Both the position numbers and the translations under genes were made by a program. The notes below the pieces were generated by a model. The model was not told where the DNA came from and made no database searches. It worked only from the letters and a program-made list of their open reading frames with translations. Below, piece after piece: positions 3,628-34,000 of a stretch of DNA of 64,000 nt; within the stretch, counting starts at the first letter, position 1, and each line of letters starts with the position of its first letter. The stretch is from Anadara kagoshimensis (Eukaryota; Mollusca; Bivalvia; Arcoida; Arcidae). Location of the stretch: the NCBI GenBank assembly GCA_021292105.1, contig CM037870.1, positions 16,649,234 to 16,713,233 on the forward strand. The letters run 5' to 3'.

Positions 3628-3759
3628 TCATACTGTGGCCTCTGTGCTTATTTCTATCATGGAAAGTTTTAAGCGCTGAATCTCTCGATAAGCCATCGTC
3701 AGATCTGACCTCAGCTGGTTTTCTCGCTCTCGTAAATCTCGGATTTCTTTTTGACTTGA
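3628..3759 (-). CDS. RAP1GAP: RAP1GAP exon 21: C-terminal coiled coil and stop
   Basis: Acceptor CTTTCAG, then 43 codons and TGA. Residues 724-766. The sequence is rich in E, R, K, L and Q with heptad-spaced hydrophobics ([15 protein letters not shown]...[10 protein letters not shown]), continuing the coil begun in exon 20. It ends in STEATV. Vertebrate RAP1GAP does not, to my knowledge, end in a coiled coil, whereas SIPA1-family RapGAPs do. Confidence 0.88.
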   Translation of the reverse strand, partial: SSQKEIRDLRERENQLRSDLTMAYREIQRLKLSMIEISTEATV

Positions 3760-8157: not shown

Positions 8158-11100
8158 ATACAAGTGAAATATTCTTGACTGTGATGTTAAACTCCATGCA
8201 ATAAATCACTCAATCTACCATTACAGAATTTACAGTGAATTTAAAACTCTTGACTCTCAGGTAAAACACTGTGAATCCACTCTATTTCTTGGTAACATTA
8301 AGATCAAATCCTATTGTTATACCCGTGTTTTTGTATTTTTAAATCATTTTATAAAACTAATTGAAATAAAACAAATACTGTGATGTATTAATATTCGTGA
8401 TTTTCAAGTCAATTCTTAGCCACATAAGTAAGTACATGTACACTATTATATTTTATACATGTTGAAAAATACAAATGGGCTTACCTACTGCTTCAAAATA
8501 AGTACATGCAAACATATTTTTTAATGTTAAACTGTGAAAGTTTCTACTAATAAATATTTCTCATTTTACAGTAATTTATTAATCTCGTGGGTAAGAAATA
8601 AAATAATTAAATATAAAGAAGCTTACACTGGCAGGTTTTTCATCCTCTCCGACTGTTGGTAATGCTCCATTAGTTTTCCGACTGTTGTTACTTAGACTGG
8701 AATCCGATGATTTGGCTTTTGTGCTCCATGCACGCTTGAATGAGTCGATAAATCGTACACCTTTGTTTGGAACTTGGGACAGTTGTGGTTCCAAAAATAT
8801 CGGTATTTTTACGATGGAGCTCTTGATGGAGAGTTTCCAGTAAAGCAGATCTGGTTCTTTCCTGAAAAAAATTTCAATTAAAATTATTTTTGTTTCTTAA
8901 TATTAGATAATTACAAATAAGACCATCAATATAATATTGATAAACTACATAGCATGTAGGATAGAACAGAATAGATTGGAAGAAAATACTTAAAGTTCTA
9001 TAATTACATTTTACAATAAATTGATTTTGATGCCCTTGCCAAGATTATTTTACTGATATTGAGGCAGTCCATTCTGGAATGGTGGGGGAAACCAGAGTGC
9101 CAGGGAAAAACCATCAACCTCTGCAAGCAAGCTGACAAACTTTCTGTCCCAAATGGGATTCAAACCTAAGCAATGAAAGGCCCTGTGATAGATAAGCTGG
9201 TACTTCAGAACCCTAGGTCACTGAGGTCCCTTTTCAGGGGAGATAATCATGGTATTACTTCTAGTCATACCTCTAACTTGGAGAACTGTTCAGCTTTGTA
9301 ACTGGATAATTCAGCATTTATCAGTTTGGTCAAAATAAAATCTGCAAATTCTGGTCCCTACAAACAGAAAAAAATAATGTTTTAAAGTATAAACAAGCAA
9401 ATTCAGGGAAGGGAATTGGGATCTCACACAAGTAGGTACTTCTTTGTGATTAGCACTTATGTTCAAAGGGCCATAACTCCCAGGAAAATTGAACTAAGGT
9501 TAATGATATGTGCATCTCTATTTAATGTTGATGCCAAGTTTAATAAAATAGTTTTGGAGGATTACTTAAGACAATAAGGAAGCAGTTCAAATTCTATATC
9601 CCCTCATTCTTTGAAAAGCAGGGGATAAAAAATAAGAATATATGAAACTGAACAAACAAAATAATACACGTATATATTACAGATCTCACCTGAAAATTAT
9701 GATGGCAGATAACTTAATGCATTTTCACGCTGTAAAGATTAAACTTATGTTTATCCAAACCATTATCCTTAGACAAAGTAAAATTCCCTTTCTCCACTGT
9801 CATTTGACTAGTGTCAAATCCCCAGTGGTAAGAGGTATTAGGTCAAAAGAAACAAGCTTTAACCACTTTGTCACAGGGCCCTGTAAATAATTTTAGTGTA
9901 AGTATACCTTGTTATAAATGGATGGATTACTTAATGTTGGTCCAAATTGTGGTACATCATTTCTGGCCGCTACCGCCACCTGTCGTAAAACAACAACAAA
10001 TGTTAATCCTAAGTTAGAATTCATAATAGAGGTGGTCACTAATGTATCTACTATATACTGTATAAATTATCTATAAATATATAAAGGCCATGGCCGAGAA
10101 GTACTGTCACTGGCTTTTGAAGTCAAGGGTTGTGGGTTTGAACCTCAATAGGGACTTTGAAAATTTTCTGAGACAATGTTCATCTCCTGCCCATACAAGG
10201 GGTGTTAAAAGCTCAATACTAGAGTAATCTTTCAGATGAGACCTAAAACCGAGACTTTGTGTCTAAAGACACCTCTGTAGAATTTTAAAAAGGTCCTGTG
10301 TCTCAGTGCACGCTAAAGACACCTCTGTAGAATCTTAAAAAGGTCCTGTGCTTCAGTGCATGCTAGACACCTCTGTAGAGTCTGAAAAAGGTCCTGTGCT
10401 TCAGTGCAGGCTAAAGGCACCTCTGTAGAAATTTAAAAAGGTCCTGTGCTTCAGTGCATGCTAAAGACACCTCTGTAAAGTCTGAAAAGGGTCCTGTGCT
10501 TCAGTACACGCTAAAGACACCTCTGTAGAAATTTAAAAAGGTCCTGTGCTTCAGTACACGCTAAAGACACCTCTGTAGAAATTTAAAAAGGTCCTGTGCT
10601 TCAGTGCACGCTCAAGACACCTCTGTAGAGTTTTAAAAAGGTCCTGTGCTTCAGTGCACACTCAAGACACCTCTGTAGAGTTTTAAAAAGGTCCTGTGCT
10701 TCAGTGCACACTCAAGACATCTCTATAAGAGTTTTAAAAAGGTCCTGTGCTTCAGTGCACACTCAAGACATCTCTATAAGAGTTCAAAAAAGACTAGGCC
10801 ACATGTGGCCCCTACAGAGGATGCTTTTTGCTAGAAGCGATTGAAACAAAATAAGCCAGATAAGACATATAACCTACCCTATATTGTGTGTTGGCTGTAT
10901 TCGGATTTATGGGTTGTACAACTATGTAGGCATGTAGGAAGTGTGAAGCTATCATATTTGGCACGAATGGTGTGTTCTGTTCTTGGAATACTATGGCAAC
11001 TATGTCGTTTCCTATATGGCGTTTTCTCTGTAGCTGTGTGTAAAGAAAAAAAAAGATTAAATATAAATGAATCCAATTTAAATTTTAGATCACTCCAAGA

Positions 11101-11965
11101 CTTGACATTATTGGTTTTTATTTTCTTTTATTTTTATACTTTTTATTATACATAAAAAGGAATTTTCATAATGTAAGATTTAAATTTAAAAGCAACAATT
11201 TTGTTGTTGTTGTTGTTGACAAATTTATAAAAATTTGAAAATCTTACTCAAAAATTTATTCATAATTCATATTCAACTTTTTCACCTAATAAAACATAAG
11301 TGAAAAAATACCAACCAAAAATTGTCAATGACTTAATGGTGCTATGAAAGAAGAAGCAATATTACATTTCCCTCCCCCTGCTTATAGCAGAACCTGAGGT
11401 TAAATGAATCTTTGATATTGGGGGCATAAAAAGAAATCTTCAGAATATGGTAGGTTTCTACAAATTTAAAATTATTAGCAGTCCAACTTCAAAAATATGT
11501 GAAAATATAGTCCTTTAAAGCATTTTTCTCAAATAGGATATTTTTGGAGCCAGAAACAAGTAGGCGATGATTATTTTGGCTACTGTAAATGGAAACATGT
11601 CCTACCTGTTGTGGGTCACCATCTGTAAATGGAAGTAAGGTCGATACATGGAACATAATTTCTCTATCCTGATATTTAGTAAATACAGATTCAGCACCGG
11701 TTTGACCGTGTTGTGTATCTAAACCTCCACGGAATCTACAAATATATAACACAACTAAAATAAAATAAATGTGATGAGACTACATATCACTAAATTTATG
11801 GACTGTCAGACAGTATATCAACCAAGTCCTAATGAATAATACATGTAGCAGTTTTGAAGCCGGTGTTAAACTGACAACAGGCATAATAACAGAATTCCTG
11901 CAGAATTGTGATCATTGAGATGTCCTGATGTAAGTGAAATATTCTTGACTAGACATGAAACCCCC

Positions 11966-12002
<37 letters not shown>

Positions 12003-12961
12003 CATCTGATATGATGACTTACCCTTTAAAATCTTTTAATTGCACTCTATCCCCGATGAGATTTAGAAACTCCTCCATGGCTGGACTATGGGACTTATTA
12101 GAAAATAACTCTTCTTCTTTTGTCTGAAAAAGAAAAAAAGAAGTGTCAAATTACAATAACCAATTTAATTATTTAGATTTGACAAATTCTTTGTGATTTC
12201 ATGTGTTGAATTGCAAACAAAAAAAAAAATAAAATAAAATAAAATAAATAAATAAACCACGTCAATTATTTATTATAAATTTTAGGATCCCATGTCTAAC
12301 ATTTATAAATACTGAGTGCTTGCAAAAGAACAGTCACAACCTATTCTCAAGTCTTGGTCAGATTCGAGCTGGGGTTCAAACTTACAACCACCCACAAACA
12401 GAGTAAGCACTCTACCAATTGGGATACTGTAGTGGTCCATGGTATTACTGACACTGCTATCACTGGTCAGATCCGAGCTGGGGTTCAAACTTACAACCAC
12501 CCACAAACAGAGTAAGCACTCTACCAATTGGGATACTGTAGTGGTCCACGGTATTACTGACACTGCTATCATTTCAGATTCCAAGAAAAAAATGTGGAGA
12601 GGAGTAACTTACAAGTGATTCAAAGTTCCGTCAAAATTCTTTCAAATTATACCAAGAGAAGTCCTTTCTGGGACTACCAAGGAATCACAATTGACCAGAT
12701 GATAATACTTAGAGGTTGATGGCACCGAGATGTCCACCTGTTTGACAGTGATACTTAGAGATCATTGGACATGAGATCAAACTACCTTTGGTAAGCTAAC
12801 AGTCAAACTTTCTCACACTAAGATCTGCCTGGATGAGAATCAAACCTAAATATTGAGAGGAATTGTGATCTTTAAGCTGACATTTTAAACCACTGCCACT
12901 AAGACCCTCAAAGTCAAAAAGGTAACAAGCAAATTCAGTGAATTAGGATTCCCCCACCAGC

Positions 12962-13007
<46 letters not shown>

Positions 13008-14144
13008 TGATTTGTACATATGTTCAAAGGGCCATAACTCCTTCAAAATGAGAAAACCAACTTGAATAACAATATGTGCATCTCCTATCTATGTTGATAC
13101 TTTGCAAGTTTTATGAAATAGTGCTTCATAGTTTTTGAGAATAGCGCCGACAAGAATTTCGGACAGACAGATGGATTGAAGGATGAAAAGACAGAAACTG
13201 GAATTTAACATTCCCTCTTTCCTCGAAAGGCAGGAGATAAAAATGTCAGGGTTATAGGTTATGACCAGGGCTAAAGGTGAGACAACAATACACACCTGAC
13301 CAAATGTCTGGTATATAATACCAAATTTGTGGTGATTTGTGATGCTGTGTTCATCATATTGCACTATTAACTCGGAACCTTTAGACGATAATACTGGATG
13401 TAATCTGTCGGTCGTTATGTCTTCCCGCAAAAACTGAAAGTAACAAAATCATAAAAGATTTAAACATTTAATAAGGGTGTGAGCATGACTTCACTATTAT
13501 CAAGAAACACATGATTTAAATAAACAAATAAATAAACAATTCTTAATAAATAACTTTTCATAAATAAATTAATAAATATTTGCAAGACTTAATCTTAAGC
13601 TTTTAGTACATGCATTAATTTATACAAGGCTAAAATGAACTTTCATAGGTTTAAATTAACTTTTGCAAATTTTGGCATTAAAAGCACATTTTTTGGAATA
13701 GAACTATCTGCTGAATAAATATTTGACAAACAAATTATAAAAGTCTAGCATAATTTTCTATTATAAAAAATACCTTGGGTTATCTCCCCTTTGACCATAA
13801 TATTGTACTAACCTTTATAACTTTCACTGGATTTGGTATGCCATCTAAATCTTGTAATGGAATTAATCTTTCTTCAGTACAAAATTTTGTTCTATAAGAA
13901 ATAAAATTAATAAAGTTAAATTATATTGGTAATGGATTGATAGATAAGTTGAAAACACAAAATAAGTTATAATTCAATATTTTAGACTTTTTAAGAGGCA
14001 GCTGTGGCAATTTTACCATTTAAATTACATGACCCAATAGATATACATATTTTGTTGGTTTTATTAAACTTAAGATGATAGAAATCATGGCATGTTTTAT
14101 CTCTCTCTGTCCCTCTTGTCCCATTAATTTGCAATCTCTCTCTC

Positions 14145-14175
<31 letters not shown>

Positions 14176-17100
14176 TGCACTTTACCTTAGGACAACTCTA
14201 ACATTTTCTATATCAGAATTAATTTCTTCTCTCATAGACATAATGAGTGGTCCGTAATTCTCATCCAAACCATAATAATTAAAATGTTCCTGAAATTGAA
14301 AACTGAAAATCTCAGTGATTGATTAAAACGAAAGAGTGTATGAGAGTTTATGTAAGTGTTTCTACTTTTTTTTATAAGTGCGGCGCTTTAATTTGTGATA
14401 CTATGCTCTATGACCTTCAGGTTCAAAGGAGGTTAATGGGTCAGGTTATAGGTCATTAGAAAGGTGAAACAATGATCCACACCTGACTAACATCTGGTAT
14501 ATAATACCAAATTTGTGGCGATTTGTGATACTGCGTTTTTATTAAATTGCAAGAGGTACTTTCCCTGCCGGAGCACCAGGTCTCACTTCCATGGTGGAAG
14601 TTCACATGATTAATTTAATTTGTCAGTTTCAAAGTTTTAATTTTGCTTTGGACATGGATTAGTATGCTTTTGAATGCACTATTAACTAACCCCGATTTGA
14701 ACCTAGGTGGTGATAGGTGTTAAGCTTACACCTTAGACTATGCAGTCAACCACTGAGGCCCTAAAGGTCATCTGTCCATTAAGACCAATGTTTTACTTCA
14801 ACCGAAAAGAACATTTTTGTAAAGACCAACGGTCCAAATTCCTTAGGTCCTATGGGTGGTTCTACCGTATGACATAGTTGGCATGGGCAGTGAAGGGTGG
14901 TCTTTATATACAGGTTTCACAGTATTTATATTTTTTACCTTTCCTAAGAAATGCTGTCTATAACTGTGATAATTTTTGTTAGCCTCAATCTGGATTCTTG
15001 ATGATCTTGTGTCGGGAATGGTCGGTTTTCCACCAATCAGAGCTGGAGAATTAATATCAACGCCATCGATCCAATAACCGCCATTGACAGGTTCCAGTAT
15101 CATTGGATAGGGACCGTCACCATGTAAAATCTGAAAATATATCAAATAAGTCAAGATTCAGAAACCATACAAGAATAACAATCTCCCCATCCAGGTGGTA
15201 AGGTATGTGATGGAGTGGGGTGGAAACATGGCCTGAAATTGAGTGAAGTACTTAACTAGAGGAGAGGTGCAGAGTGGAACGAAGTGGATTAGAATGGAAT
15301 AGAGGAGTGGAGTGGAACAGAAATGAGAAGAGCAGAGTGAAGTGGAATGGATTGGAGTTGAGGTGAATGGAATTGAGATGAGCTGAGAGAAATGGAGTAA
15401 AAAGTAGTGTCATAGAGTAATGGCGTTTAATCTGGTTAAAAATCTTTATTTAACCTACACCAAGGCAGTCAGTTCGTACATGTAAGAGGAAATGAGTGCA
15501 CTTATAGAAAACAACTGACCTAGCTAAAGCAAGTTGGCAAGGTATAAGAAAAAATATGGAAACATCATGTAAAACTGTTATTACACAAAAATGTTAATTA
15601 CAGCATCCATGACAACCCAGTAAGGCAAGATAAATAATTTATTTCTGCTTATAAACGTCCTTCAAGCATATTACAGATATTTTTACTAATACACTGCATC
15701 AGGTATATTGGACATAGTCAGGTTATCATTGAATTATCTCCCCTTTGACCACAATTGTATGTACTGACAATAGGATAGGAGCTCATTTATATTAGATTAG
15801 ACTTACCTATATGACCAGTCAGGTGGCCTTATGTGTACATACGCACGAAGAGGACTAAGTAAGTAAGTAAAAGACCAGTCAAATATATATGACCAGGCTC
15901 TAAAAAACCAAATATTACCTCTATTAGCCAAGGCTGTGTCTCAATACTTATTGAATGGGTATCAATCTATATTTCCAGATTGACTTTTGACAGGAATTTA
16001 ATTTTATTTCAACTCAATCTACTATTTTTGTAGTCAATTTTTTCAATTGTGAAAATCAGTTTGGTGTTTGTGAAAAAAAACTTTTAATTGTGAATGGGGC
16101 CCAATATTGGTCCCAAATATGACCCAGTAAGAAGAGCGTCCTGTTAGCAGTTAACATCTGTTGCATGGGAAGGCTATGTGTAGATATTATTTCCGACACT
16201 TGTGCAGATCAATACAGCATTTAGTTTTAACAGAACTCATTACCTTTCTCTTCAGAATCATCTGGTTAACACCAGTTAATTAATAACACAAGACGGCAAT
16301 CAATAAACTCAGGAATAATTAAAGATTACTTAGGCCAAATAACACTGAGGTTTATGAGTTTGGACTTGGCTTCTCAAGTTCACAATTTGCATTAAATACA
16401 GTCAAACCTGTCCATAAAGACCACTCAGGGGAACCAGTAAAAGTGGCCTTTATATTCAGGTGGCCTTTATATACAGGTTGAAATAATATGGATAAAGAAC
16501 AATTGGAATACAATTCTACTGACCTTTATAAGCAGGTGACCTTATAAAAAGGTGACCTTTGGCAGGGTTGACCGTAATATTATTGATACATTGATGAAGG
16601 GCACTATAATCTGTAAACCAGCACTTTAGACTTCTTACTTTACTTACCAATTCTAAAGTGCATTGTGAAAAAGGGATTTCGCACTAAATTTGGTCAAACT
16701 TATTTCAAAACCCATAGAAGAAACAGATTTTGTAACTTTAAGAGATTGGGGCAATATGTGAAGTGATACAGTATTTGAAACATTATAAAAAGGTTTTACT
16801 GTAGTTTCAAGAGTGGAGTAATGAAGTTATACACTCCAGCCAAAATTCTTTCGCTTATATCAAAGCAGATAGAAGGAACCAAATTTAGATATTTAAAGAG
16901 ACTGAGTCAATATGAGAAGTGATACAATAAAAAGGTTTTACTGTGATTTCAGGAGTGGAGTAAAGTATTTGAGTTTTACGCCCCAGCCAAAATTCTTTTG
17001 CTTATATCGAGACAGTTCAGGGATGGCGGAGGAAACTGGAGTGCCCAGAGAAAACCACCCACCTTTGGCAAGAAAACTGACAAATTGTAATATCAGTAGT

Positions 17101-18011
17101 AGAGAAGAGTAAAGTAATGGAGTTTTATGCCCAAGCCAAAATTGTTTTGCTTATATTAAGACAGGTTAGGGATGGTGGAGGAAACTGGAGTGCCCAGGGA
17201 AAATCATAAGCTTAGGCAAGCAAAATGACATACTTTAACACACTAGGATCTGCTCCAGGTAGGATTCTAACCTAGGTGGTGACAGAAGTTGTTATCTGTA
17301 AGCGCACTTCAGACCACTTAGCAACTGCGGCTCAGTGCTCTTCAGACCACTCAGTAACCACAGCTCAGTGTTCTTTGGACCAGTCAACTACCGAGGCCTC
17401 TGACAATAACTGAAGAAATAAAATAATTCAGACATTATAAAAGGTTTGCCTGAATTTCAATGACGGTTTTCTCACCTCTTCGACATGTTCATAGTCCTTC
17501 TTCTGTTCTGTGGGAGTGACTGCTGGGGAAGTCTGAAATGTACAAAATACAATAAATTTGCTTTAAAAACATTTTGAGATTGAAATAAAGGTTTTTAAAT
17601 GGAAATTTTTAAAAATCTGTTTCATTTAAAATAAAACTATCATCTGCAACTTTTTGTCATCTTACTCCCATTTAAAATAAATGATAATTCTGAGAAAATG
17701 AACGCACTGCTTAATTTGCTCTTTGTTCTCATCTTTCTGTTGTTATGCTAATCATGTTTAAAATGCTACTCCCAACTGAGAAGCTCACACCTCTACAAGT
17801 CTCACTCACTCTATATTTTTGGGTTTTCTTTCAACTAAAATAAACTGTAAGCTTCTGAAACTTATTGGCCTAGTTGTCATCATCATCATCAAACCTCTCT
17901 CTCTCTCTCTCTCTCTCTCATCATCATCATCATCATCAAACCTCTCTCTCTTCTCTCTCTCTCATCATCATCTTCAAACCTCTCTCTCTCTCTCTCATCA
18001 TCCATCTTCAA

Positions 18012-18053
<42 letters not shown>

Positions 18054-18329
18054 CATCATCAAACCTCTCTCTCTCTCTCATCATCATCATCATCATCAAA
18101 CCTCTCTTTCTCTCATCATCATCAAACCCCTCTCTCTCTCATCATCATCATCAAAACTCTCATCATCATCAAACCTCTCTCTCTCATCATCATCATTATC
18201 ATCATCAAACCTCTCTCTCTCATCATCATCATCATCAAAACTCCCTCTCATCATCATCAAACACCTCTCTCCCTCTCTCTCTCTCTCTCCATCATCATCA
18301 TCATCAAAACTCTCTCTCATCATCATCAA

Positions 18330-18365
<36 letters not shown>

Positions 18366-18466
18366 CATCATCATCAAAACTCTCTCTCATCATCATCATC
18401 ATCATCAAACCTCTCTCTCTCACATCATCATCATCATCAAAACTCCCTCTCATCATCATCAAACAC

Positions 18467-18508
<42 letters not shown>

Positions 18509-18661
18509 CATCATCATCATCATCAAAACTCTCTCTCATCATCATCAAACCTCTCTCTCTCTCTCTCTCATCATCATCATCATCAAAACTCTCTCTCATC
18601 ATCATCAAACCTCTCTCTCTCACATCATCATCATCAAAACTCCCTCTCATCATCATCAAAC

Positions 18662-18701
<40 letters not shown>

Positions 18702-18748
18702 TCATCATCTTCATCATCATCATCATCAAAACTCTATCATCATCAAAC

Positions 18749-18780
<32 letters not shown>

Positions 18781-19295
18781 CATCATCATCATCAAAACTC
18801 TCTCATCATCATCATCATCAAGCCTGTTTCTCTCTCATCATCAAACCTCATTCTCTCTTTCATCATCATCAAACAACAAATTCAAATTCAACAGGTGTAT
18901 ATGAAACATTTTGCAAAACAAAATGTGTGATCTATCCTCTAAACATCACATGACAACTACTAGAGACATCTCTTATTCACAATCAACAACATGCAAGTTT
19001 TAGATATAAAAAACATCTATTGTAATATAATAGGTGACTATATATACAGAATATCTATAAAAACAACATGATTCTCTATTTAAAGTTCTTGTTTCAACTA
19101 CCAGTGACTAAAAGCCATCTCTCTCTCTCTCTCTCTACATGTTTCAACAACATAAATTTTTAAAACTCTTTCTACATATTTCAAATAAACCAAGCCCCTC
19201 TTGTTTTCTCTCTCTCTCTCTTGATTCAACCCCCCTCTGTCTCTCTCTCTCTCCACGTTTCAACCACAAAACTATCTGTGTCCCTCTCTCCCTCT

Positions 19296-19327
<32 letters not shown>

Positions 19328-22300
19328 ATTCAAACCTCAATATCTTTAAATTCCCCTTTCTCTGTGATAGTATCTCTTGATTCAAACCTCAATCTCTGAA
19401 ATCAAAGCTCTCTCTCTCTCTCTCTCTCTCTTCCCCTCTCTGTCTTTTCCTCTGACTTAATATTGATTTTTATACAGGGTAAACAAAATATACATGTAGA
19501 TATATATAAATTCTGAATACATTTGTATAATATGAAATATAGTAGTCAATTGCAGTGGAACCCGTGTAAACAAATTCTTGAAAAAAACAAAAATCTGTCA
19601 ATATATTGAACAGATTTCAGAATACTGGTAAACAATCTAAAAAGATCTTTAATGATCAGATTCCTTAATAAATTGAAAATTGTCTACATATTGAATAGTC
19701 ATCTGGACACCATGCATAAACCAAAAACCCTAAAAAGTCTTTATGATCAGATTCCTGAATTAACTGAAAATCTAAACTGGGCAGTTTTTTGGTTGTTGTT
19801 TTTTACCCTTTTTTCAATAAACCTGCACCACTAATATCTTATGTGTACACAAAAAAAAACTGCATCTAATAAAACAATAATTTTGTTCGAACAAGTGGTC
19901 CATTGGGCATATTTTCCCCTTTTTGATATACCAATACCACTAATATTTTATGTGTACACAAAAAAGACATCTAATAGAAAAAAAATGTTCGAACAAGTGG
20001 TCCATTTTAACAGGTTCCACTGAATATACCAAGTAAATGAATATGCTACTTTAATACATATACTTATTTTTATAATAAAATATATAAAAAATATATTAAA
20101 CTACATGTACAACATATATGAATGTGCTGCTACGTAATAAACACTTTGATGTACAGCTAATATTGCACACACACACAAATTTTAATATACGACAACTGCA
20201 ATACACAATGAATTAGCAATCATTTCTAACCTTATACAGTCATTCAATATTAATTTCTCAGTTCGTCAAATTTTAATATACGACAAATGCAATACACAAT
20301 GAATTCGCAATAATTTCTAACCTTATAAAGTCGTTCAATATTAATTTCTCAGTTCGTTAAAGTTACGACTTTGATAAAAGAAAGACCACCTGCCGCTAAA
20401 ATCCGGCAATATCTTTTATAGATCAATCATTAACGATTTCAGAATTAGTTATAGGTAAACAACATTGACCTGTCCGTTTGACCTTTCATTAGGAATATTC
20501 ATATAGGGGGGTCCACCCAATACATGGGTAGCATCATGATTCGCGGTTAATACATATCCACATTGCCCATAATTGGTGTTTACATGAAGTAGACAAAATA
20601 AACATGCATGATCCCTATAACTTAAATTTACTCGTCCATATTGAGTAATTAAATCAAAGGTCAAACGGACAAGTCAAAGTTTTTTGCCTATACTATTACT
20701 CAGTATTATCATGGGTTTTTTTTTATAGAATTAATATTTTTAAGTCTCATGCCACACTGTGTGTGGGAGACTTATTGTCCTTATTCCATTTCTTTATTAT
20801 TATTATTATTATTATTATTCCACTTTATCCACACACATTTGCTTTCCATTTTCTCAGAGATACCTCACTCAATCTCAACCAAACTTTATAGCAACAACAT
20901 ATCAACCATCCAAGCAGATGTGCAACATTTTTTTTTTTTTTTTTTTTTTAAATATTTTTTTTATGTTTTATATTCTTTTTTATTTTACTTTATACATATA
21001 TTGGTCGTTTTTTTTTTTTTTTTTTTACATAAATTTTTCTCTGATGTTTTCTGATTTCAAATTTAATCACACCGATAATTTCAGATTTCAGATTTAACTA
21101 CAGGGTAAGTAGATATTGATATCAAACACAATAGGGAGAAATTTCAGATGTAGCATGTGTGTCATTTAAAAATACAGGAAACTACGAGTCCTGGCCAACA
21201 CCACTGCCTTAGGTGCTCCAAACAGCTGCAGTAGGTAAGAGACCCTGATATCAAACACAAAAGGGAAAAAAACAGGTGCAAACTGTGTTGTTCGAAAATA
21301 CAGGAATTAAGAGTCAAGTACCGCTGCCTTGGGTGCTCTGAACTAGTTTGCGGTAGGCATATTTTATGACAAGCAGTTGTTATGATATGTATCTACTAAA
21401 CTATGATTTATGGTATACAGAGAAGATGGTGAGATTTAAAAAGGAGGAAACTCCAGATTTGGGATCAGGAAGCTTGAGGCCACACAGATAAGATTGAAAT
21501 CAATGGAAAGTTCACGATACTTTAATGGGAGAGGCAAAATATTGTCGAAATTTAAACACCCTAACCAGCTAATGACAAAGATAACTGAATCACTCTGTAT
21601 TTTATAAATGTGTTCATTTTTATTTTTTTTATTTTCAAGTGAAAAAGTGGACTGGTGTATGTGTGTTTTATGCCCCAGTCAAGAGGGTTTCACTTATACA
21701 GTGGCAGTCAGTTCTGAGATGGTGAAGGAAACAAGAGTGCCCAGAGAAAACAAACTTTCTCACACTAGGAAGTTGTCGGAGTGGGATTCAAACCTAAGTC
21801 ATGATGAGAGGTGCTGTGAACATTAAGTGTGTGGTCACTCGGTCAACGAGGCCCTCTCAAGTGAAAAAACCTCTCCAAAATTTATTTTACTGATCATTTA
21901 ATTGAAGTTTAAAATCAGTGGGAGGAAGGCAAGTTGAAGGGGGTGTTAAAAACCCAGTCAAGATTGATTCTCTTTGTTATACTGAAGTGGTCAGGTAAGA
22001 AGGTAGAGAAAATTGGAGTGCCTGGCAAAAACCACAGACATTTTGCAAACAAACTGACAAAATTTTACAACGAGACTAGTCTAAGTGAAATCAAATGGAG
22101 CTAGCCTTTTAGACTGACTAGCCATAGATGCTCCATCAAAATCTAGATAAAATATTAAAACTCTGTATCATAACAACAAAAAATTATTGGTAACCATGTG
22201 TCGTCAGATGAGATCTCTGTAGAGAAAATTTGAAAATAAAAAAGCACCATCTGTGGCCACTTGGCAGAGGACCACAATATAGCTATAGAAATGACTTAAT

Positions 22301-25300
22301 TACTGTAAATATCCAAGGTCGATAGTGGGAAATGCACAAACACTTATGACTCAATAAAGATAAGGCATAAAATTGTTGTATATGCAGTGTTTCAGTCTAG
22401 TTATGTCCTGACCCAGGCCCTGAAAAACAGGGCTATTACATTGTGCCCATTAAGACAGTGTTCATTCTAGAAAGGGGGCCAAAGGGCTGTTGACCCCTAT
22501 CTTGCCAAATGGTCCCATTGTTAAGATTTTACTGGGTCATATTTTACATTACACAAACACTAAAATATTGATGTTTATATTGTGTTTAAGAGGGTTTTCT
22601 TTTGAGAATGGCCCCATCTGAAAAATCCTAGCATGAACACTGATAAGGCCTTAACAATAGGGTCATTTTAGCCAAATAAAGGGTCACATCCCCTTCTAGA
22701 ATGAAAACTGTGTATATATATTTTTAACAAAAGACACAATACCTATGATTATCCCACTAAGGCCTTGACAATGGGGTCATTTTGCAAATTAAGGAATCAA
22801 TGGCCCACTGGCTCCTTTCTAAAATGAAAATTTATTCAAACATAGGCATAATACTTATGATTTACCACAATAAGGCCTTAACAATGGGGTCATTTTGCAA
22901 ATGAAGGGACCAATGTCCCAATGGTCCTTTCTGAAATGAAAACATCTATTCAAACATAGACACAATACCACTGATCACATTACAATAGCAAATACAAAGT
23001 ACAAGTAATACTAATGGCACACTTAGCAAGTTCAACACAAAACAAACAGCATAGTATAAAACACATCAAGAGTGCAGTTTGTAAGTTAGTACCATGCATA
23101 CATAAAATACTAGAATAAAGTACTAAAGTACTATAGAAGATACACAGTGTTAATACAACATGCACGTGATCAGACCTTTGGAATAGGTGTAGGCATAGCA
23201 CATCGCTGGTCCTCCAAGCGACGACTTTGGTATTTAAGAAGCAACTCGTAAAAATCGGCTCCCTAAAATAATGGCATTGTGAATATAAGCAAACATTGTA
23301 TTTTAAGCTTTCTGAAACATAGTGAAAGCTTCAAGATCTAATAAAGAACTAGAACTGCCTCTTGAGAGCCAAATACCTCCCACACCTCCCCTAACATTTA
23401 ATGTTTTCCCACAACCTTGACCTTTCCAATATGACCATTGTTCAAGGTCATGACACAGCTTTGGACTATGAACATTATTCATGTGAAGTTTTATAACAGT
23501 CCTTCTAAGCAATCATGAGATGTGGCCTGGACAAAATGTTACACAAACTGGCAGACAGACAGACATGGTGATTCCTATATACCCCTTCAAACTAGTTTGT
23601 AGGGGGTATAATAAGCTATTTAAGCCAATTGTTTTTAATTAAATATATACTGATGATGGGACTAAACTAGAGGCTCCCAGGAGCCTGTATAGCTCACCTA
23701 GGTAGAGATGTTGCAGAATGAAAATCAACATTGTCTAATGTTTAAATAAATGCTTGAAATTTATTACACAATATTTATTTCTATCACAAATTTCAATATT
23801 ATTTCCTTTCAAAACTAAACCATATTTCAAAATTTTGAGACAATACATACCAAGTATCATCGACTTTTCATGTATAATACCTGAGAAATTTTCCTTATCC
23901 AAAAACTGGTCAATGGACCATGAAATTAAGGTCATGAACAAAAGCCATAAGGCAGTCTGACTGATGTTCTATCCAAGATCAAGCTATATACCAAATATCA
24001 TTGACCTACCATGTGTAGTATTCGAGATTCAGAGAAACTGACCTAATCCAAAAAGTTCAACATAGTCACTAGAGGGTTAAGTTTAGGTCAAAGACAAAAG
24101 TCATATGGCAGACTGACATGTACTCTCCAAGACTAAGATACATACCAAATATCATTGCAATTGGCCAAGTGGTTTCACAGGAGTTGATTTTTAAATGCAG
24201 ATGTTATTTTAAAATACCAAATGTAAAGACCCAATGACTATTGTGGCCGAGTTTGGTTCCAATTGACTCAGTAGTTTCAGAGAAAAATATGTTTGAACTT
24301 ATTTTCCCATAGGGTCACATGTTAAAATATGTTTTCCACTGACGGCCATCTTGGATTTTGTGTGGCCCTCAAAAACACCAATGTTGTAGGAGGCCACCCA
24401 AAGACTATTGTGGCCAAGTTTGGTTCCAATTGGCTTAGAGGTTTTAGAGAAAAAGATATTTGATATTGTTCCCATAGGGTCCAATGTTAACCTATGTTCC
24501 CCATTGGCGGCCATCTTGGATTAGGTGCAGACTTAAAAAAACACTGGTTTCAGATGGTACCATTTAAGGACTACTGTGACCAAATTTGGTTCCAATTCGC
24601 TCACTAGTTTCAGAGAAAAATATCTTTGAACGTATTTTCCCATAAGGTCCAATGTTAAAATATGTTCTCTGCTGGTGGCCATCTTGGATTTGGTGTGGCC
24701 CTCAAAAACAGCAATGTTGTAGGGGGCCATCCAAGAACTATTGTGGCCAAGTTTGGTTCCCATTGGCTAAAGGGTTTTAGAGAAAAAGATCTTTGATATT
24801 GTTCCCATAGGGTCCAATGTTAACCTATGTTCCCCGCTGGCCACCATCTTGGATTAGTGGAGACTTAAAAAAAACACCGGTTTCAGAAGGTAACATCTAA
24901 GGACTACTATGACCAAGTTTGGTTCCAGCTGGCTCAGTAGTTTCAGAGAAAAATATCTTTGAATGTATTTTCCCATAAGGTCCAATGTTAAAATATATTC
25001 TCTGGTGGCGGCCATCTTGAATTTGGTGCAACCCTCAAAAAACCCAATGTTGAAGGGAGGCATTCAAAGACTATTGTGGCCAAGTTTGGTTCCCATTGGC
25101 TAAAGGGTTTTAGAGAAAAAAATCTTTGATATTGTTCCTATAGGGTCCAATGTTAACCTATGTTCCCCATTGGCCGCCATCTTGGATTAGGTGCAGACTT
25201 AAAACACTGGTTTCAGAAGGTACCATCTAAGGACTACTGTGACCAAATTTGGTTCCAATTGGCTCAGTAGTTTCAGAGAAAAATATGTTTGAACGTATTT

Positions 25301-27982
25301 TCCCATAAGGTCCAATGTTAAAATATGTTCTCCGCTGGTGGCCATCTTGGATTTGGTGTGGCCATAAAAAACAAAAATGTTGTAGGGGGCCATCCAGAAA
25401 CTATTGTGGCCAAGTTTGGTTCCCATTGGCTAAAGGGTTTTAGGAAAAAAGATCTTTGATATTGTTCCCATAGGGTCCAATGTTAACCTATGTTCCTCAC
25501 TGGCCACCATCTTGGATTAGGTGCAGACTTAAAAAACACCGGTTTCAGAAGGTACCATCCAAGGACTACTGTGACCAAGTTTGGTTCCAATTGGCTCAGT
25601 AGTTTCAGATAAAAATATCTTTGAACATATTTTCCCATAGGGTCCAATGTTAATCTATGTTACCCCCTGGCGGCCATCTTGGATTAGGTGCGGACATGTC
25701 GGACACAATTTTTAAAGTAGACCACCCAAAGACTGTTGTGACAAAGTTTGGTTGCAAATGGCCCAGCGGTTTCTGAGGAGTTGATCTTTAACGACAGACG
25801 GACGACGACAACGACGACAACGGACGCAAAGTGATGGCAAAAGCTCACATGGCCTTTTAGGCCAGGTGAGCTAAAAAAGCAGATACATTCAAGTGATGTC
25901 ACTCATTTTATGCATATATGTGTGACATACATCATTTATTGGCTGTTCCAGCAACTGGATATGTATGTCATAAGCAGCAGTATTTAAAATTTCAGTCAGA
26001 ATTTAAAAATTAAAATATCATTTTCAAAAAATGTGAAATGTAAATATATAATTAACCACTGAACTGTCTAGAAATGGCTTTCATACATGTAACTTTCATT
26101 ATCGTGCAAAGCAAACTAATCTTATGTTCCTTAGCGCAATATTCAGTTTGTTTTGCACGGTAATGGAAGTTAAAGCACTATAAACATCATTTCTAGATCA
26201 ATATGGTTTAGCATAATTATTTTCTCCACAATTAGACAAGAGGCCCACTTGAACAGAAATGCTCACCTGGTTCAAATGATGTAATTCCATTTTAAAACTG
26301 GGATAAAGTTATCCGGAAATGGACCAGTTTGGAAATCAAGAAAAATCACAAAATTTGAAAAGAAACTAAAAGATCAATCACCATTTTAAAATTGTCCAAA
26401 ATGGTGTCATGGCAATTTTATCATGATGGAAGAATTTTAGAAACTACCCAACCTTTATATATAATGGTGTATATCCAAAAGGTACGAACAATAAATGGTC
26501 TTAAATGGTTATTAATAAATGGTGACACACAAAACTTCTGTTAGGGTAGGGGTATATGAAATCCTTCTGGCAATTTTTGACAGTTTTCTGCATATCACCA
26601 CTACTAAATTAACACAAATGTTTTAATAAAAAAAATTTTTCTTGATGTCCCTCTTTAAAAAAATTGTATTTCTAAGATTTATTTCTGATGTACATATACC
26701 TTAAAACTTTCTATCTGAATTATCTTTCAATGAAATAATCCATAAAAATACATTTTTCCATAGAATATTCCAATAATATAAATACTATTTTCTAATTAAA
26801 TTTCTTTTCCATAAAATATCCCCCCAAAAAACTCTTTTCCATTATTCTATTTTCATTCTTTTTGGGATTTTTCCTCCTTCCTTTTTAAAATCATTATATT
26901 TTTTTTTATAAAAATTATTTTTCAAATACCTGGTGAATATGGCAGTAAAATGAATCCCTGGTGGTTTTAAAATGCAATGGCTGGATGTCATCAACAAATA
27001 ACGCTTCATCCCAGAGTTTTTTGATGAAAAAACTAAACATGTCCCTAATAACTGACCATACAAAATTTAACTTGTCCATCTGACACTACCGTAATTTTTT
27101 TTCTAAAATGACCATTTTACGCCATGTGATAAATTTTAATGAATCATAACAGATTTTCTAAATAGTATTTCTATGTTATGTAAGATCAGTGGTCACTACG
27201 ATGTCCATCAGGGGCAATGTTTTAGTCAGTGGTCACTATGATGTCCATCAGGGGCAGTTTGAATTTTAGTCACTGGTCAAATATTTTTTTTGACTGGTAA
27301 AGCTCATATAAGGTGTAGTACTAAAAATGGTGGTGATAAATGAAATTCATTTGTAAAAAAAAAATCTTCACATTTTCTTCAGATTAATCTTTAAATGTGT
27401 CTATCTTCGTTTTTTTCATTTTTTTATTTTTGTTTTTCTTTTCTTTTTTTTTTTTTAATACGAAGATAATTTTACTTCATCATATAATTTTTTTTTTTAA
27501 AAAGTAACTATTTTCAATTTGAGACAAAAATGGTAAAATAGTTTGTTAACAGTTTTGACGTTAAAATTTACACTATTAAAGTTAAAATATAGATATGACA
27601 GAGTAGGTAGTGGGTGGGTGGTTATTTTAGTGGTTTAGTAATTTTTAGTAATGATTAAAAAAAAAACAGAATAAGAAAATAAAAATTGTGAACATTCTTA
27701 GAGGCAAAGGAAGCATTTGATCCATTTAGTTAAAAAAAACTATTAAAGTTTAAGTTATTAAATAATTTAATTAAAACACATAATAAATAAATAAATAAAT
27801 AAATATATTGTTTAAGAAGGGAGATAATCTATCTGATTGATGATCTTGACCTAATTAAGAACCAGTGTTTGTCATCGTACATGATGGATTTGTTAATTAG
27901 GTCATCCATCAGGTAAAATGACATATTTTAGGAAATGACATACCTGTAGTTACTACCGGTATATACTATATACAAATATTTA

Positions 27983-28021
<39 letters not shown>

Positions 28022-31000
28022 TTCACGTTGACATCGGTATATGATTCAAAATAAACCCAAGAATTACATATGAAAAATCTGGTTCTTGAAATTGCCACAT
28101 AAGTGCATTATTTCATATACCAATTTGAACTTAAATGTGAGATTAATCAGCACTTTTGTGCAATACAGAATTCGAATTTGACCTTGAAATTATCAGTAAA
28201 AATGGATATGACCTTCAATTGCTGGTAATTCTGATTCAGAATTCAGAATATAAAATTTGGATTTGACCTTGATCTTGCATTGATTTTGGGCTTCGCCTTA
28301 CAAAACAAATGACATTAAAAATGTCTATTTATTATTCTGATAAAATGATAAAACAAGTGAAAATTCTTTAATATTTTATATTTTTATTCTTAATGAAATT
28401 AAAAATGTCTGTTTATTATTCTTATAATTTAAAAAACAAGTGCAAATTCTTTAAATTTTTTTTTAGTTTTAGGTGTTATGGTATTGTGAAGCAGACAGGT
28501 GACAAATGGACAGACAGACAAACACCAGAAAAACAAAGTGACCAAGTGTTATAGAAAGAAATCAGTGAAGAGATGTGACAATGTGAGCAACAACATTTTT
28601 AGTGTCCAAACATGAATTATATACCGGGTACTTGAATGTATCTATCCAGATACCATGCTTAACATTAAATCATTCTACATATAAAAGTTTCCCTTCAAAC
28701 ATAGAAAGAGATACGCCATCTAATTGGGCATCAAGTGGCAATTTATTCCTAAGGTCAGAGTTCAAGGTTGTTGAAAGGTGAAAATATAGAATTACCTTGA
28801 AGAATGCTGACATGTCACACCTTTGGTCATCGATCCTCTTCCCTTGTAGCTGAACCAACATCTCAAACAGGTCATTAGTCTATAAATAAAAAATAACATT
28901 GTAAAAAGCACAATGAGTGGATGCTTCTACCTATCAAATGGCTGGAAGGGTTGGGCACTCTGTGACTGTAGGGTTGGACATTCTGTGACCAAGTGGTCTA
29001 AAGCCTGCTCCTACAGATCACACCCTCTCACAGCCACTCAGGACAGATTCTAGTGTGAGAAGATTGTCAGTTCACTTGCAGTAGGTTAGCGATTTTCTCT
29101 GATCAGGCCCATTTCCTTCGCCATCAATGAAGCAGTGGTCTCCATAAAGCCAGGCGACAAAAGTTGTCCGATACTTGTTTGGATTTGGATTAAGTTTGTT
29201 GCCTACTGCCATTTGTAAATTTGGTTTTTGCAGTACATACTGTATATTACTCTATTTACATGGCATCAAAATTTTGTGGTTTGACAATGCCCCAGTGTAT
29301 TCGCAATGTCAAATTTTCCCGGTTTTATTCGATTAAAGGGAAGGAAGTGGGTGAGAACCTGAAACATTTACTGAATGCCTCAAAATGTTGTATCCTGACA
29401 GCGGTTTTATTTTTGTGAATATGGTGAAAATTAAAAGTGCAGTCCAACCTGCCTTAAAGGCCACCTCTATATAAGGACCACCTGCTTATAAAGACCAGTA
29501 GAATTGTATCCCAATTGTTCTTCATTCATATTATTTGAACCTGTATATAAAGGTCATCTGTCCATAAAGGACACTTTTACTGTTCTCTTGAGTGGCCTTT
29601 ATAGACAGGTTTGACTTAACAGCGAAACATTTAACCCCATACTTGCTACCTTACTTTTAGAAACATGTCTTCTACTTCAAAATTTACTGATATGACTGGA
29701 ATCATTACTGATGAACTGACAATCTGGATATATGTGAAACAATTTTGACTTGGGACCTATAGCACCATTAATCCATCCCACACCTCTCTTATTACAGGTA
29801 TTGCTTTGTTTTATTGTTTGTATATATACCTGTTAACGAGTCAATAACCAACAATAACGACCTTTATATCTATATAAGTCACAGGTACGTCAATAAATTG
29901 ATAAATCAACAAGGGCCCGATAATGTGACAAGAATGATCAACAAAGAACCAATTACCTGACAAAATGACAGACAATGGTGTAGATCATGCAAATAAGCCG
30001 ACGTTTCTACCTCAAAAAGGAATGGCCATCTAATCTATTATAAATGCAATATTCAAGGCATTTTATTGGAACATGCCTCAGTCAATACCACCACCAGGGT
30101 AGCCCAACGGGTAAAATGCTTGCTCTGTATGTGATAGGTCAGGGCCTTGGCCAGTACAACCACCATGATAGCTCAGTTGGTAAAGTGCTTGCTCTGTATG
30201 TGATAGGTCAGGGCCTTGGCCAATACAACCACCATGATAGCTCAGTTGGTAAAGTGCTTGCTCTGTATGTGATAGGTCAGGGCCTTGGCCAATACAACCA
30301 CCATGATAGCTCAGTTGGTAAAGTGCTTGCTCTGTATGTGATAGGTCAGGGCCTTGGCCAATACAACCACCATGATAGCCCAGTTGGTAAAGTGCTTGCT
30401 CTGTATGTGAGGTCTGGGCCTGGGCCAATACAAGTACGATGGTAGCTCAGATGCTATAGAGCTTGTTCTGTACATGGAAGGTCAGGGTTCAAACCCTGAT
30501 CTGGGTCTGACCAGGCCTTAAAAATAAGAATTGGCTAATCTTTAGTCAAGCAGTCCACATTTAGTAATGACAGTTACTGGGTCTTCGCAAGAGACCTTAA
30601 AAACTAAGGTGGAGATAACCAGTCTCATAATATGGATCAAATATAAATCCTTTTTAGTAAAGCAGTCGGCACAAGTCAAACCCACAAGCTAGACACCGAA
30701 AGTAGTTTGGGGGCCTCAGTGGCCAAGTGGCCTAAAACCTACAAATCAATTGGCGCCTCTCACTATCTCGGTGAGAATCACATTCAAGCAGATTCAGTGT
30801 GAGAAAGTTTGTAACTATGCTTGCCAAAGTTCAGTGGTTTTACCTTGGCACTCCATTTCAGAACAGCCTGCCTTCATTTAAGTGAAGAATTTAAACTGGG
30901 GCATAAAACACCATCATGCCAATAGAGCTGCCTACCTCCATATATTAAGTGAAAATCTTGACTTAAGAAATAAGGTAATTTTCCAATGTCTTTATGAACT

Positions 31001-34000
31001 TGCATAGTATAATGGGTTGTCTCAAACTGCATAAAATGCAAAGCCTTTTGCTAAAAAATTTGAGACAGCTCATTATACTTTGCAAGTTCATAAAGTATAT
31101 ACAATATTTATAAAAATTAACTTTATTGCTGTCTCACATTTTCCATGTTAATTTTAAAACAATTTTGAAATGTGATGTTATGCATCTTTCTCATAAAAAT
31201 GGGTCGTCTCCTGTCAGTCAACGAGAGCATTGGACATCTGACGTCATCATGTCAGCGCATGGAGCAATGTCTCTATGAAGTTGCAAAGTATAGTCGATGT
31301 CAAATACTTTGTTGAAGCAAAGATTTTTGGGTCATAAAACACCATTACGTCAATCCAGTCCACTTCACGTCACTCGTCAACACTCTTGGTATAATATAAA
31401 TGTTTATTAGGGTGATAACTCCCGTTATTATCATATAGTTATCTAAATGACTTTATGACATTATGTCGCTGGTTCAATTCATCTCCCGTTATTGACATTT
31501 ATTATAGATAATACACTTTTATCAATTATACACCCTCAAAATCAACTTATATATAAAGAGAGCTAAGGCCTGACGACAGTTTAACACTAAGCTAACAAAA
31601 ACAAGTCCATTTACAGCTGCTGAGTGGCTAAAATATGGATAGCGGGTGACCTGAAAACCTTCCCAGAGACAGATAGCAGCCACCGAAAAACTGTCAAGAT
31701 AAAGCTAGCGAGAGGCAGATATGAGCTGGCAATTGGTTAGCTTAGTGTTAAACTTTTGACAGGCCTGTACTGTACGTTCTATCTATTTGTATATGACAGA
31801 AATTGAGAACGAACCACTCATACTCGAGAATATCTCGTTAAATAAAATGTTATAGTGCCCCTTTGGTTTACTTCCTTCTTTGCCACTTTGCTAGTTGGTG
31901 CGTCAGTGGCTGTGTCGTCTAAAGTGTGTGCTTGCGGATCACAGTGCCATTGACCCCCTAAGTCTAACCCCATTCTGACAGATTCTAGTGTGAGGAAGGT
32001 TTTTAGTTTGTTTGCTGAAGGTTGGTGGTTTTCTCTGGACACTCTGGTTTCCTACACAATGTTTAAAGTAACTAAGTTCACCATATAAGTGAAAGAATTC
32101 AATGTCTTGCTGAAAAAATCAATTCATAACCTGTTATTTTAGGCTTAAACCCAAAACCACCAAAACACAATTCATAACCTGTTATTTTAGGATTAAACCC
32201 AAAACCCCCAAAACACAATTCATAACCTGTTATTTTAGGCTTAAACCCAAAACCCCCAAGTCCGCTGTTCACTTATTGTAGCCACATATTTCCACACATA
32301 ACAGTAGAATAGCATTTTATGTCAATGACAATATTCTTTTACTTTTATCAAGGCAGTTAGTTCTGGGATAGGTGTAGGAAACTATAGTGCTGGGAAAATA
32401 TCCACAGACCTTCAACAAGTGAAATGACACTTTCTCACACAAGGATCTGTCAAGAGTGGGATATGGAAACTAGGAAGTGAGAGCCACTGTGATTTATAAG
32501 CTGGCGCATAAGGCCACTTGACCACCGAGTTACTATCACAGATAGGGATCACATGATAAGTTTTTTATATGACGTTAACTTACTTTTTCATCCGTTTCCG
32601 GAGATGTTGGACTCTGCTGTTGTTTGGGCGCATGGTCCTCACAATACAACTGACCATCCATGGCCTGTTTCCTGAAAATACACAAAAACAAAATCTTATA
32701 TAAAATCAATAATTGACTGGTCATCTATTGGTCACTCATCAATACCACCGGGCCCAAGTTTCACAATCTTTTCTTAATTAATATTTTCCTTAGCTTAAAT
32801 TTAGCAAATTTTGGCAAGCTCCTTTTGGAGTTTTGTCAAAACTAAAAGCAGATGTCAAAAGTTTGATATAATCTTTAAAATGACACCATAAATTTTTTAA
32901 TATCTTAACAATTAGCAAAATTGTAAAGTTTTTTAATTTGCCAGATTTAAGTTAACGAAAATTTTAAGTTAAACCAAGGCCCCAGTTAAATTTTAACTTC
33001 TGTTAATTTTGGCAAAAAATTTTCAAACTACAAATTAACGTTTTTGTAAATATTATTACAGATGCTTGAAGTGATCTGAAAAATATACCTTAAATTCCTG
33101 AACATCTTAAAAATTAACAAAATTATTTTAAAAGATTTCGTATTAACCAGATTTAAGATAAGGATAATATTAGTTAAGGAATTGATTGTGAAACTGGAAT
33201 TAAGATTATCTGAAATTAAGGAAAGGAAATAATGTGATATTAAACATAAACCAGGTTGTTTAAAGTTTGGTTTACCAGGTGCAAACTTGCACATTACATT
33301 TCATATTTAAGAACTGGAAAATTGCTGATGCAATGTTAAGCAGCATTCAATGATAACAACAACAGCATTTCCTCATTTATAAGACACTGTTGTTTTCAAT
33401 AACAACAGCAAAAGTTTTCACTTGGGGATTAAAAAAACAATAAAGTTTACATAGAATTTAATCTGATGGCATAGTGATTACATTTGATGTCAATACTGTT
33501 TTTCAACAAAGAAAGCAAAATGATTTTCACTGGGGGATTAAAACATTATATTGCCCCCAGAGTTATTTCATCCATCCATCATCTTGGCCTGAAGTTTTTC
33601 TAGGAATATAGCACACATAAGACACACATGAAAATGTAATACAACATGTCATTACTTACATATATCTTTTACAAGACACACATATATGTATCAATTTTTA
33701 CTACACATGTCACCATTCATGTTCTCACATCTTGTAAATACACAGTATGAAACAAACATAGATCATATCCTATTGACTGGGGCAATGTGCGAAATATGGA
33801 TTGCATTCAACTATTAGCTGTATTTACTGGCTACAATGAGGAACATTCCTTTTACTCCTTGCTGGGAATCGAACCCGGGTCAATTATCTATTGTTTTGTC
33901 TGAATGATATCCGTTATGCCTTAGTCACACATTCACAGGTCACCATCACCGATTAAATTTTATGGATGACCCGTGACTCTGACGAGGTGATCCATGTATG

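Follow-up and report, generated by a model that had tools for sequence, protein, structure and literature searches.

Two complete GoLoco exons in a RAP1GAP orthologue of the bivalve Anadara kagoshimensis and the possible use of the second as an optional cassette

The RAP1GAP gene of the bivalve Anadara kagoshimensis encodes the N-terminal GoLoco region twice, as two complete motifs that are carried by two successive small exons. We analysed this gene in a window of 64,000 nucleotides (nt) of NCBI GenBank assembly GCA_021292105.1 (contig CM037870.1, positions 16,649,234 to 16,713,233), in which it lies on the minus strand; coordinates refer to this window unless another contig is named. From the splice sites and the introns of the gene, we infer that exon 3, which encodes the first GoLoco, is regularly spliced in, and that exon 4, which encodes the second, is an optional cassette, which would give rise to RAP1GAP isoforms with one and with two GoLocos. 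We assign to this reading a probability of about one half.

Exon 3 (28879-28796, 84 nt, 28 amino acids) and exon 4 (23262-23176, 87 nt, 29 amino acids), both read on the minus strand, have open reading frames and are of phase 0-0. The former is flanked by ...ttatag and gtaatt, and the latter by ...ttttag and gtctga. With the Pfam GoLoco profile PF02188, which has a curated cut-off of 25.1 bits, exon 3 scored 41.5 bits (E 8.8e-11) and exon 4 scored 39.1 bits (E 5.1e-10), so that both are over the cut-off. Each of the two exons matched four solved-structure sequences, all of them of GPSM2. The triad that is characteristic of the motif reads DDQR in exon 3 and EDQR in exon 4, and its arginine is described, in the part of PMC12329598 that we used, as touching guanosine diphosphate (GDP). 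The motif of exon 3 also contains an in-frame methionine at 28861. The junctions 2/3, 3/4 and 4/5 are all in phase 0 and, therefore, the exon combinations 2-3-4-5, 2-3-5, 2-4-5 and 2-5 are all open. When both exons are included, equivalent residues of the two GoLocos are 28 residues apart.

The gene was modelled as 14 exons, numbered 2 to 15, which run from 32671 down to 8627 and have AG and GT borders throughout. The joined protein contains two GoLoco stretches and the domains of RAP1GAP nearly end to end. In Pfam searches, the Rap_GAP domain was found with an E value of 3.1e-66 over profile positions 2-184 of 185, and the Rap-GAP dimerisation domain with an E value of 2.9e-34 over profile positions 3-106 of 106. 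The Rap1GAP structures 1srq (E 1e-129) and 3brw (E 6.9e-129) align with the joined protein over 331 residues. In the alignment with 1srq, the stretch RHIGNDIVA, which we take to be the catalytic asparagine helix of RAP1GAP, is identical. These matches support the assignment of the gene as the RAP1GAP orthologue of an invertebrate, for which Rap1 GTPase-activating protein (GAP) activity is predicted. A preliminary description of the window had proposed this orthology, which the two domains and the two structures support. It had also described two complete GoLoco exons with D-Q-R triads and phase 0-0, in agreement with the profile scores, the exon borders and the open frames, and a spacing of 28 residues on inclusion of both, which the joined protein reproduces. 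Its statement that the vertebrate proteins carry a single GoLoco agrees, for mammalian RAP1GAP1 and for this protein only, with the parts of PMC12329598 and PMC4528294 available to us.

The genome was scanned exon by exon with PF02188 over 1,115,223,567 bases, and all candidates (34/34) were scored. Six exon matches were over the cut-off, namely three on contig C3, one on contig C1, and exons 3 and 4, which are 5.6 kb apart on the same strand. We take the gene on C3 to be Pins/GPSM2-like, and the match on C1 is presumably of the RGS12/14/loco type. An additional motif of the Pins-like gene is split by an intron and was missed by the exon-by-exon search, and the six matches are thus a lower bound. 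Because two of the six matches in a genome of 1.1 Gb are exons 3 and 4, chance is not a credible source of this pair. The same family search, with its 34 scored candidates, yielded no further GoLoco copy that could be a retrocopy recording the mature splicing. For comparison, there are 18 Rap_GAP exon matches in the genome, of which two are in the RAP1GAP gene, ten on contigs C2 and C5, and six on C3. No GoLoco match was found on C2 or C5, and those on C3 lie at 53.7 Mb, some 8 to 9.5 Mb from the six Rap_GAP matches of that contig. As far as an exon-by-exon search can show, the RAP1GAP gene therefore seems to be the sole RapGAP found in the assembly that carries a GoLoco.

The splice sites were scored with two models. 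The first model uses assumed animal frequencies, and the second is a leave-one-out model derived from the sites of this gene, with only 13 sites per test. In both models, the acceptor of exon 4 is the lowest of the 14 exons, with scores of 1.09 against 2.69 for the next lowest in the first model and of 0.42 against 6.53 in the second. The donor of exon 4, gtctga, is also the lowest of 14 in the first model. Furthermore, the introns that flank exon 4, of 5533 and 5643 nt, are the longest of the 13 that were measured, the others having between 287 and 3704 nt. The sites of exon 3 are ordinary. Its donor is the fifth highest and its acceptor the sixth highest of 14 in the first model, and they are the seventh lowest and the third highest, respectively, in the leave-one-out model. 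The poor acceptor and the long introns at exon 4, together with the ordinary sites at exon 3, lead us to prefer the reading in which exon 3 is regular and exon 4 optional. This reading is also in keeping with the better agreement of the two exons at second than at third codon positions, and with the mammalian Rap1GAP1 isoforms, which change their G-alpha-o preference through the GoLoco region (PMC12329598).

Small phase-0 exons encode the N-terminal tail of the protein, and two of them encode complete GoLocos. In the mechanism that we propose, the cell would make RAP1GAP with one or two GoLocos, depending on the use of exon 4. Docking through a GoLoco would bring the GAP to membranes that are rich in G-alpha-i/o and would tie the shut-off of Rap1 to the state of the receptor. 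The second GoLoco, placed 28 residues further on, could raise the avidity or, in the manner of the GPSM/Pins proteins with their several GoLocos, could allow one chain to hold two G-alpha subunits, which would make four for a RAP1GAP dimer. As both exons encode whole motifs, the activity expected by analogy would be binding of the GDP state, at one site or at two according to exon 4.

Several points weigh against an optional exon 4 and against this use of it. The weakness of the exon 4 donor depends on the model, because this donor is merely the fifth lowest of 14 in the leave-one-out model and because its consensus match, 5 of 9, is common to the donors of exons 13 and 15. Moreover, weak sites and long introns are not a proof of exon skipping, and the splice models are either small or based on assumed frequencies. 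Two G-alpha subunits may also not fit at once, because 28 residues is less than the 33 that separate the final two motifs in the Pins-like gene of the same genome and the 34 in the GPSM2 construct 4jhr.

If both exons are always included, the protein would be a RapGAP with a constitutive tandem of two GoLocos, in effect a small Pins-like array. In favour of this, the frame is open with both exons and neither motif is damaged. A comparison of 22 codons of exons 3 and 4 gave agreement at 9 first, 16 second and 6 third positions, so that conservation is much stronger at the second position than at the third. The silent sites look saturated and the protein pattern is kept, and for this reason both exons seem to be old and selected. 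However, the acceptor of exon 4 is poor in both splice models and introns of more than 5.5 kb lie on either side of it, and we consider a constitutive tandem doubtful, although it is the alternative that survives best.

A different alternative places the variation at exon 3. Alternative promoters or first exons could produce isoforms whose start lies in exon 3 or beyond it, or isoforms that skip this exon. In mammals, according to the part of PMC12329598 used here, alternative N-termini of RAP1GAP alter the GoLoco region and the state of G-alpha-o that is bound. The complete GoLoco of Rap1GAP1b binds G-alpha-o-GDP. In Rap1GAP1a, the first seven residues of the motif are missing, and this variant binds G-alpha-o in the guanosine triphosphate (GTP) form, so that the GoLoco is truncated or completed by the choice of N-terminus and the isoforms switch their G-alpha-o preference through this region (PMC12329598). 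The in-frame methionine inside the motif of exon 3 and the possible role of exon 2 as the first coding exon are consistent with such a scheme. However, the splice sites of exon 3 are ordinary in both models, and the methionine is not special, because two of the four motifs of the Pins-like gene have a methionine at the same place. We regard this alternative as unlikely. By analogy with mammals, an isoform that starts at the methionine at 28861 would have a truncated first motif, of the kind that prefers G-alpha-o-GTP, and a whole exon 4 motif that would hold G-alpha-GDP, so that one chain could read both states of G-alpha-i/o, with exon 4 splicing setting whether the GDP reader is present, but this is a long shot.

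The preliminary description had also proposed that exons 3 and 4 could be mutually exclusive, with the use of one or the other switching G-alpha affinity or selectivity, and had based this on their equal phase and near-equal length. Both properties hold. The two exons are neighbours, in frame, of similar length and with a similar motif, and in this respect they are like the mutually exclusive homologous pairs, whose candidates were listed by just such features in a human survey (PMC5740500; the figures given below come from the portion of that survey available to us). However, equal phase carries little weight, because each of the junctions 2/3, 3/4 and 4/5 is in phase 0. Beyond equal phase and similar length, the proposal has no positive support, and three mechanisms that could enforce exclusion are absent, which distinguishes the pair from mutually exclusive pairs with known enforcement. 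There is no steric block between the exons, because the intron between them, intron 3, has 5533 nt. There is no U2/U12 incompatibility, as both introns are GT-AG and the donors gtaatt and gtctga are not U12-like. Finally, joint inclusion of the two exons adds 57 codons and keeps the frame. In the human survey, steric interference applied to 57 clusters (9%) and U2/U12 incompatibility to 5 (0.79%), further clusters rested on frame shift, and 484 of the 629 clusters had none of the three simple mechanisms and were left to other regulation (PMC5740500). Since most of the surveyed clusters are in this position, the absence of the three mechanisms is compatible with exclusion by proteins or by RNA structure.

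Between exons 2 and 5 there are 85 inverted pairs. Among the 25 longest of these 85, 21 are poly-T/poly-A, and 4 are of another kind. Two imperfect pairs among these 4, seen in this one genome, link intron 2 (32000-32073) to intron 4 (21706-22060), with 70% and 78% complementarity over 54 and 46 nt, respectively. These inverted copies could pair across both GoLoco exons and, as candidate docking and selector sequences of a competing RNA structure, would then favour exclusion, but they may be no more than a dispersed repeat. The GoLoco tail of RAP1GAP is, we assume, of the disordered kind. In the survey, 87% of mutually exclusive regions are within secondary structure elements whereas cassette exons favour disordered regions, and among 6,541 candidates 855 passed a strict test and 1,399 a looser one, the candidates with no junction data being counted in the rest (PMC5740500). 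Taking these points together, we consider mutual exclusivity quite unlikely.

The idea that exons 3 and 4 are duplicates of each other, on which the proposal of exclusivity had drawn, finds no clear support in their sequences, as the exons are no closer to each other than to some other GoLocos. In the 20 core residues, exon 4 has 9 identities to exon 3 (score 60), 13 to motif 1 in the Pins-like gene (Pins motif 1; score 77) and 12 to the GPSM2 motif of 4g5s (score 71). Exon 3 has 11 identities to Pins motif 1 (score 63) and 12 to the GPSM2 motif of 4g5s (score 70). Each exon is thus nearer to Pins motif 1 than to the other exon. A comparison of 20 residues is too short to decide between tandem duplication and capture from a Pins-like gene. 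Exons 3 and 4 share their framing, with two residues before the motif and an end on Lys|gt, and the exon of Pins motif 1 is, by eye, framed differently; this shared framing alone would favour tandem duplication. No trace of a recent duplication was found with blastn between exons 3 and 4 with 800 nt on either side, which gave 12 short matches, the best with an E value of 0.10.

The order of an N-terminal GoLoco, a dimerisation domain and a Rap_GAP domain is the same as in mammalian RAP1GAP. Unlike the mammalian protein, which has one GoLoco region that is either whole or truncated in the variants described in the part of PMC12329598 that we used, the Anadara kagoshimensis gene has two whole GoLoco exons in succession. 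GoLocos in a row are a feature of GPSM2/LGN, GPSM1/AGS3 and Pins, and AGS3 and LGN have four of them according to the available part of PMC4528294. These proteins are built on a tetratricopeptide repeat scaffold, unlike the RAP1GAP gene, which has a GAP domain. Among the papers listed by literature searches, mostly titles and the beginnings of abstracts, we found no RapGAP with two GoLocos, and gene records of invertebrates may already show two.

The other exons of the gene are all on the minus strand. Exon 2 (32584-32671) ends in phase 0 and has good acceptor and donor scores. It has a candidate ATG at 32661 in the context gccATGg, a good start context by the Kozak consensus, and given this ATG it may be the first coding exon. 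A vertebrate-type first exon, for which we took GRKRS-FG to be the motif, was sought by a pattern scan of the window and 80 kb upstream, with nothing credible. The sequence LYCEDH in exon 2, which we took to resemble the end of a LIM domain, suggested such a domain, and this candidate was rejected. Pattern scans of the same region, judged by eye, gave no credible LIM half, and the only Pfam match that bears on the idea was WRC with 16.0 bits, for a cut-off of 28.6.

Exon 5 (17476-17532) starts in phase 0 and encodes a linker of 19 amino acids; a long CT-rich simple repeat (17780-18904) is located in intron 4, just upstream of this exon on the gene. Exon 6 (14939-15130) extends to where the dimerisation domain begins, and exons 7 to 14 (9271-14289) encode the remaining part of this domain and the Rap_GAP catalytic domain. 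Intron 6 contains, at 14444-14537, a partial copy of exon 9 and of its downstream flank (13250-13351), 1.19 kb upstream on the gene, in segments of 45, 31 and 26 nt with identities of 93%, 84% and 73%, respectively. Inspection by eye showed no acceptor rich in pyrimidines, and the copy therefore looks like a pseudo-exon. Exon 15 (8627-8861) corresponds to the end of the conserved region, and its reading frame shifts by one within the exon. It has the expected frame at its start and a continuation in the next frame that presumably is conserved, and the shift could be due to an unrecognised splice, a real change of frame or a base error of the assembly. By eye, the 3-prime end of the gene (at 3631-4414) looks like coding sequence for a coiled coil. 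Elsewhere in the assembly, contig C4 has four COX1 matches between 4487676 and 4537603. Three of these contain 8 or 9 TGA codons in frame, and they look like nuclear copies of mitochondrial DNA; one COX1 copy is free of stops over 446 residues under the invertebrate mitochondrial code, the sole code that was applied. A molluscan haemocyanin profile had no match in the assembly, and it had none in the control genomes either.

In mammals, it has been debated if RAP1GAP acts as an effector for G-alpha-GTP or as a partner for G-alpha-GDP, and the available part of PMC12329598, a recent work, traces the answer to variants of one GoLoco region. With two whole motifs on separate exons, the gene of Anadara kagoshimensis would offer a natural test, in which exon 3, exon 4, both or neither could be related to the G-alpha that is bound and to the Rap1 GAP activity. 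If exon 4 is merely an ordinary cassette, the gene would still provide a domain-count variant of a well-studied protein.

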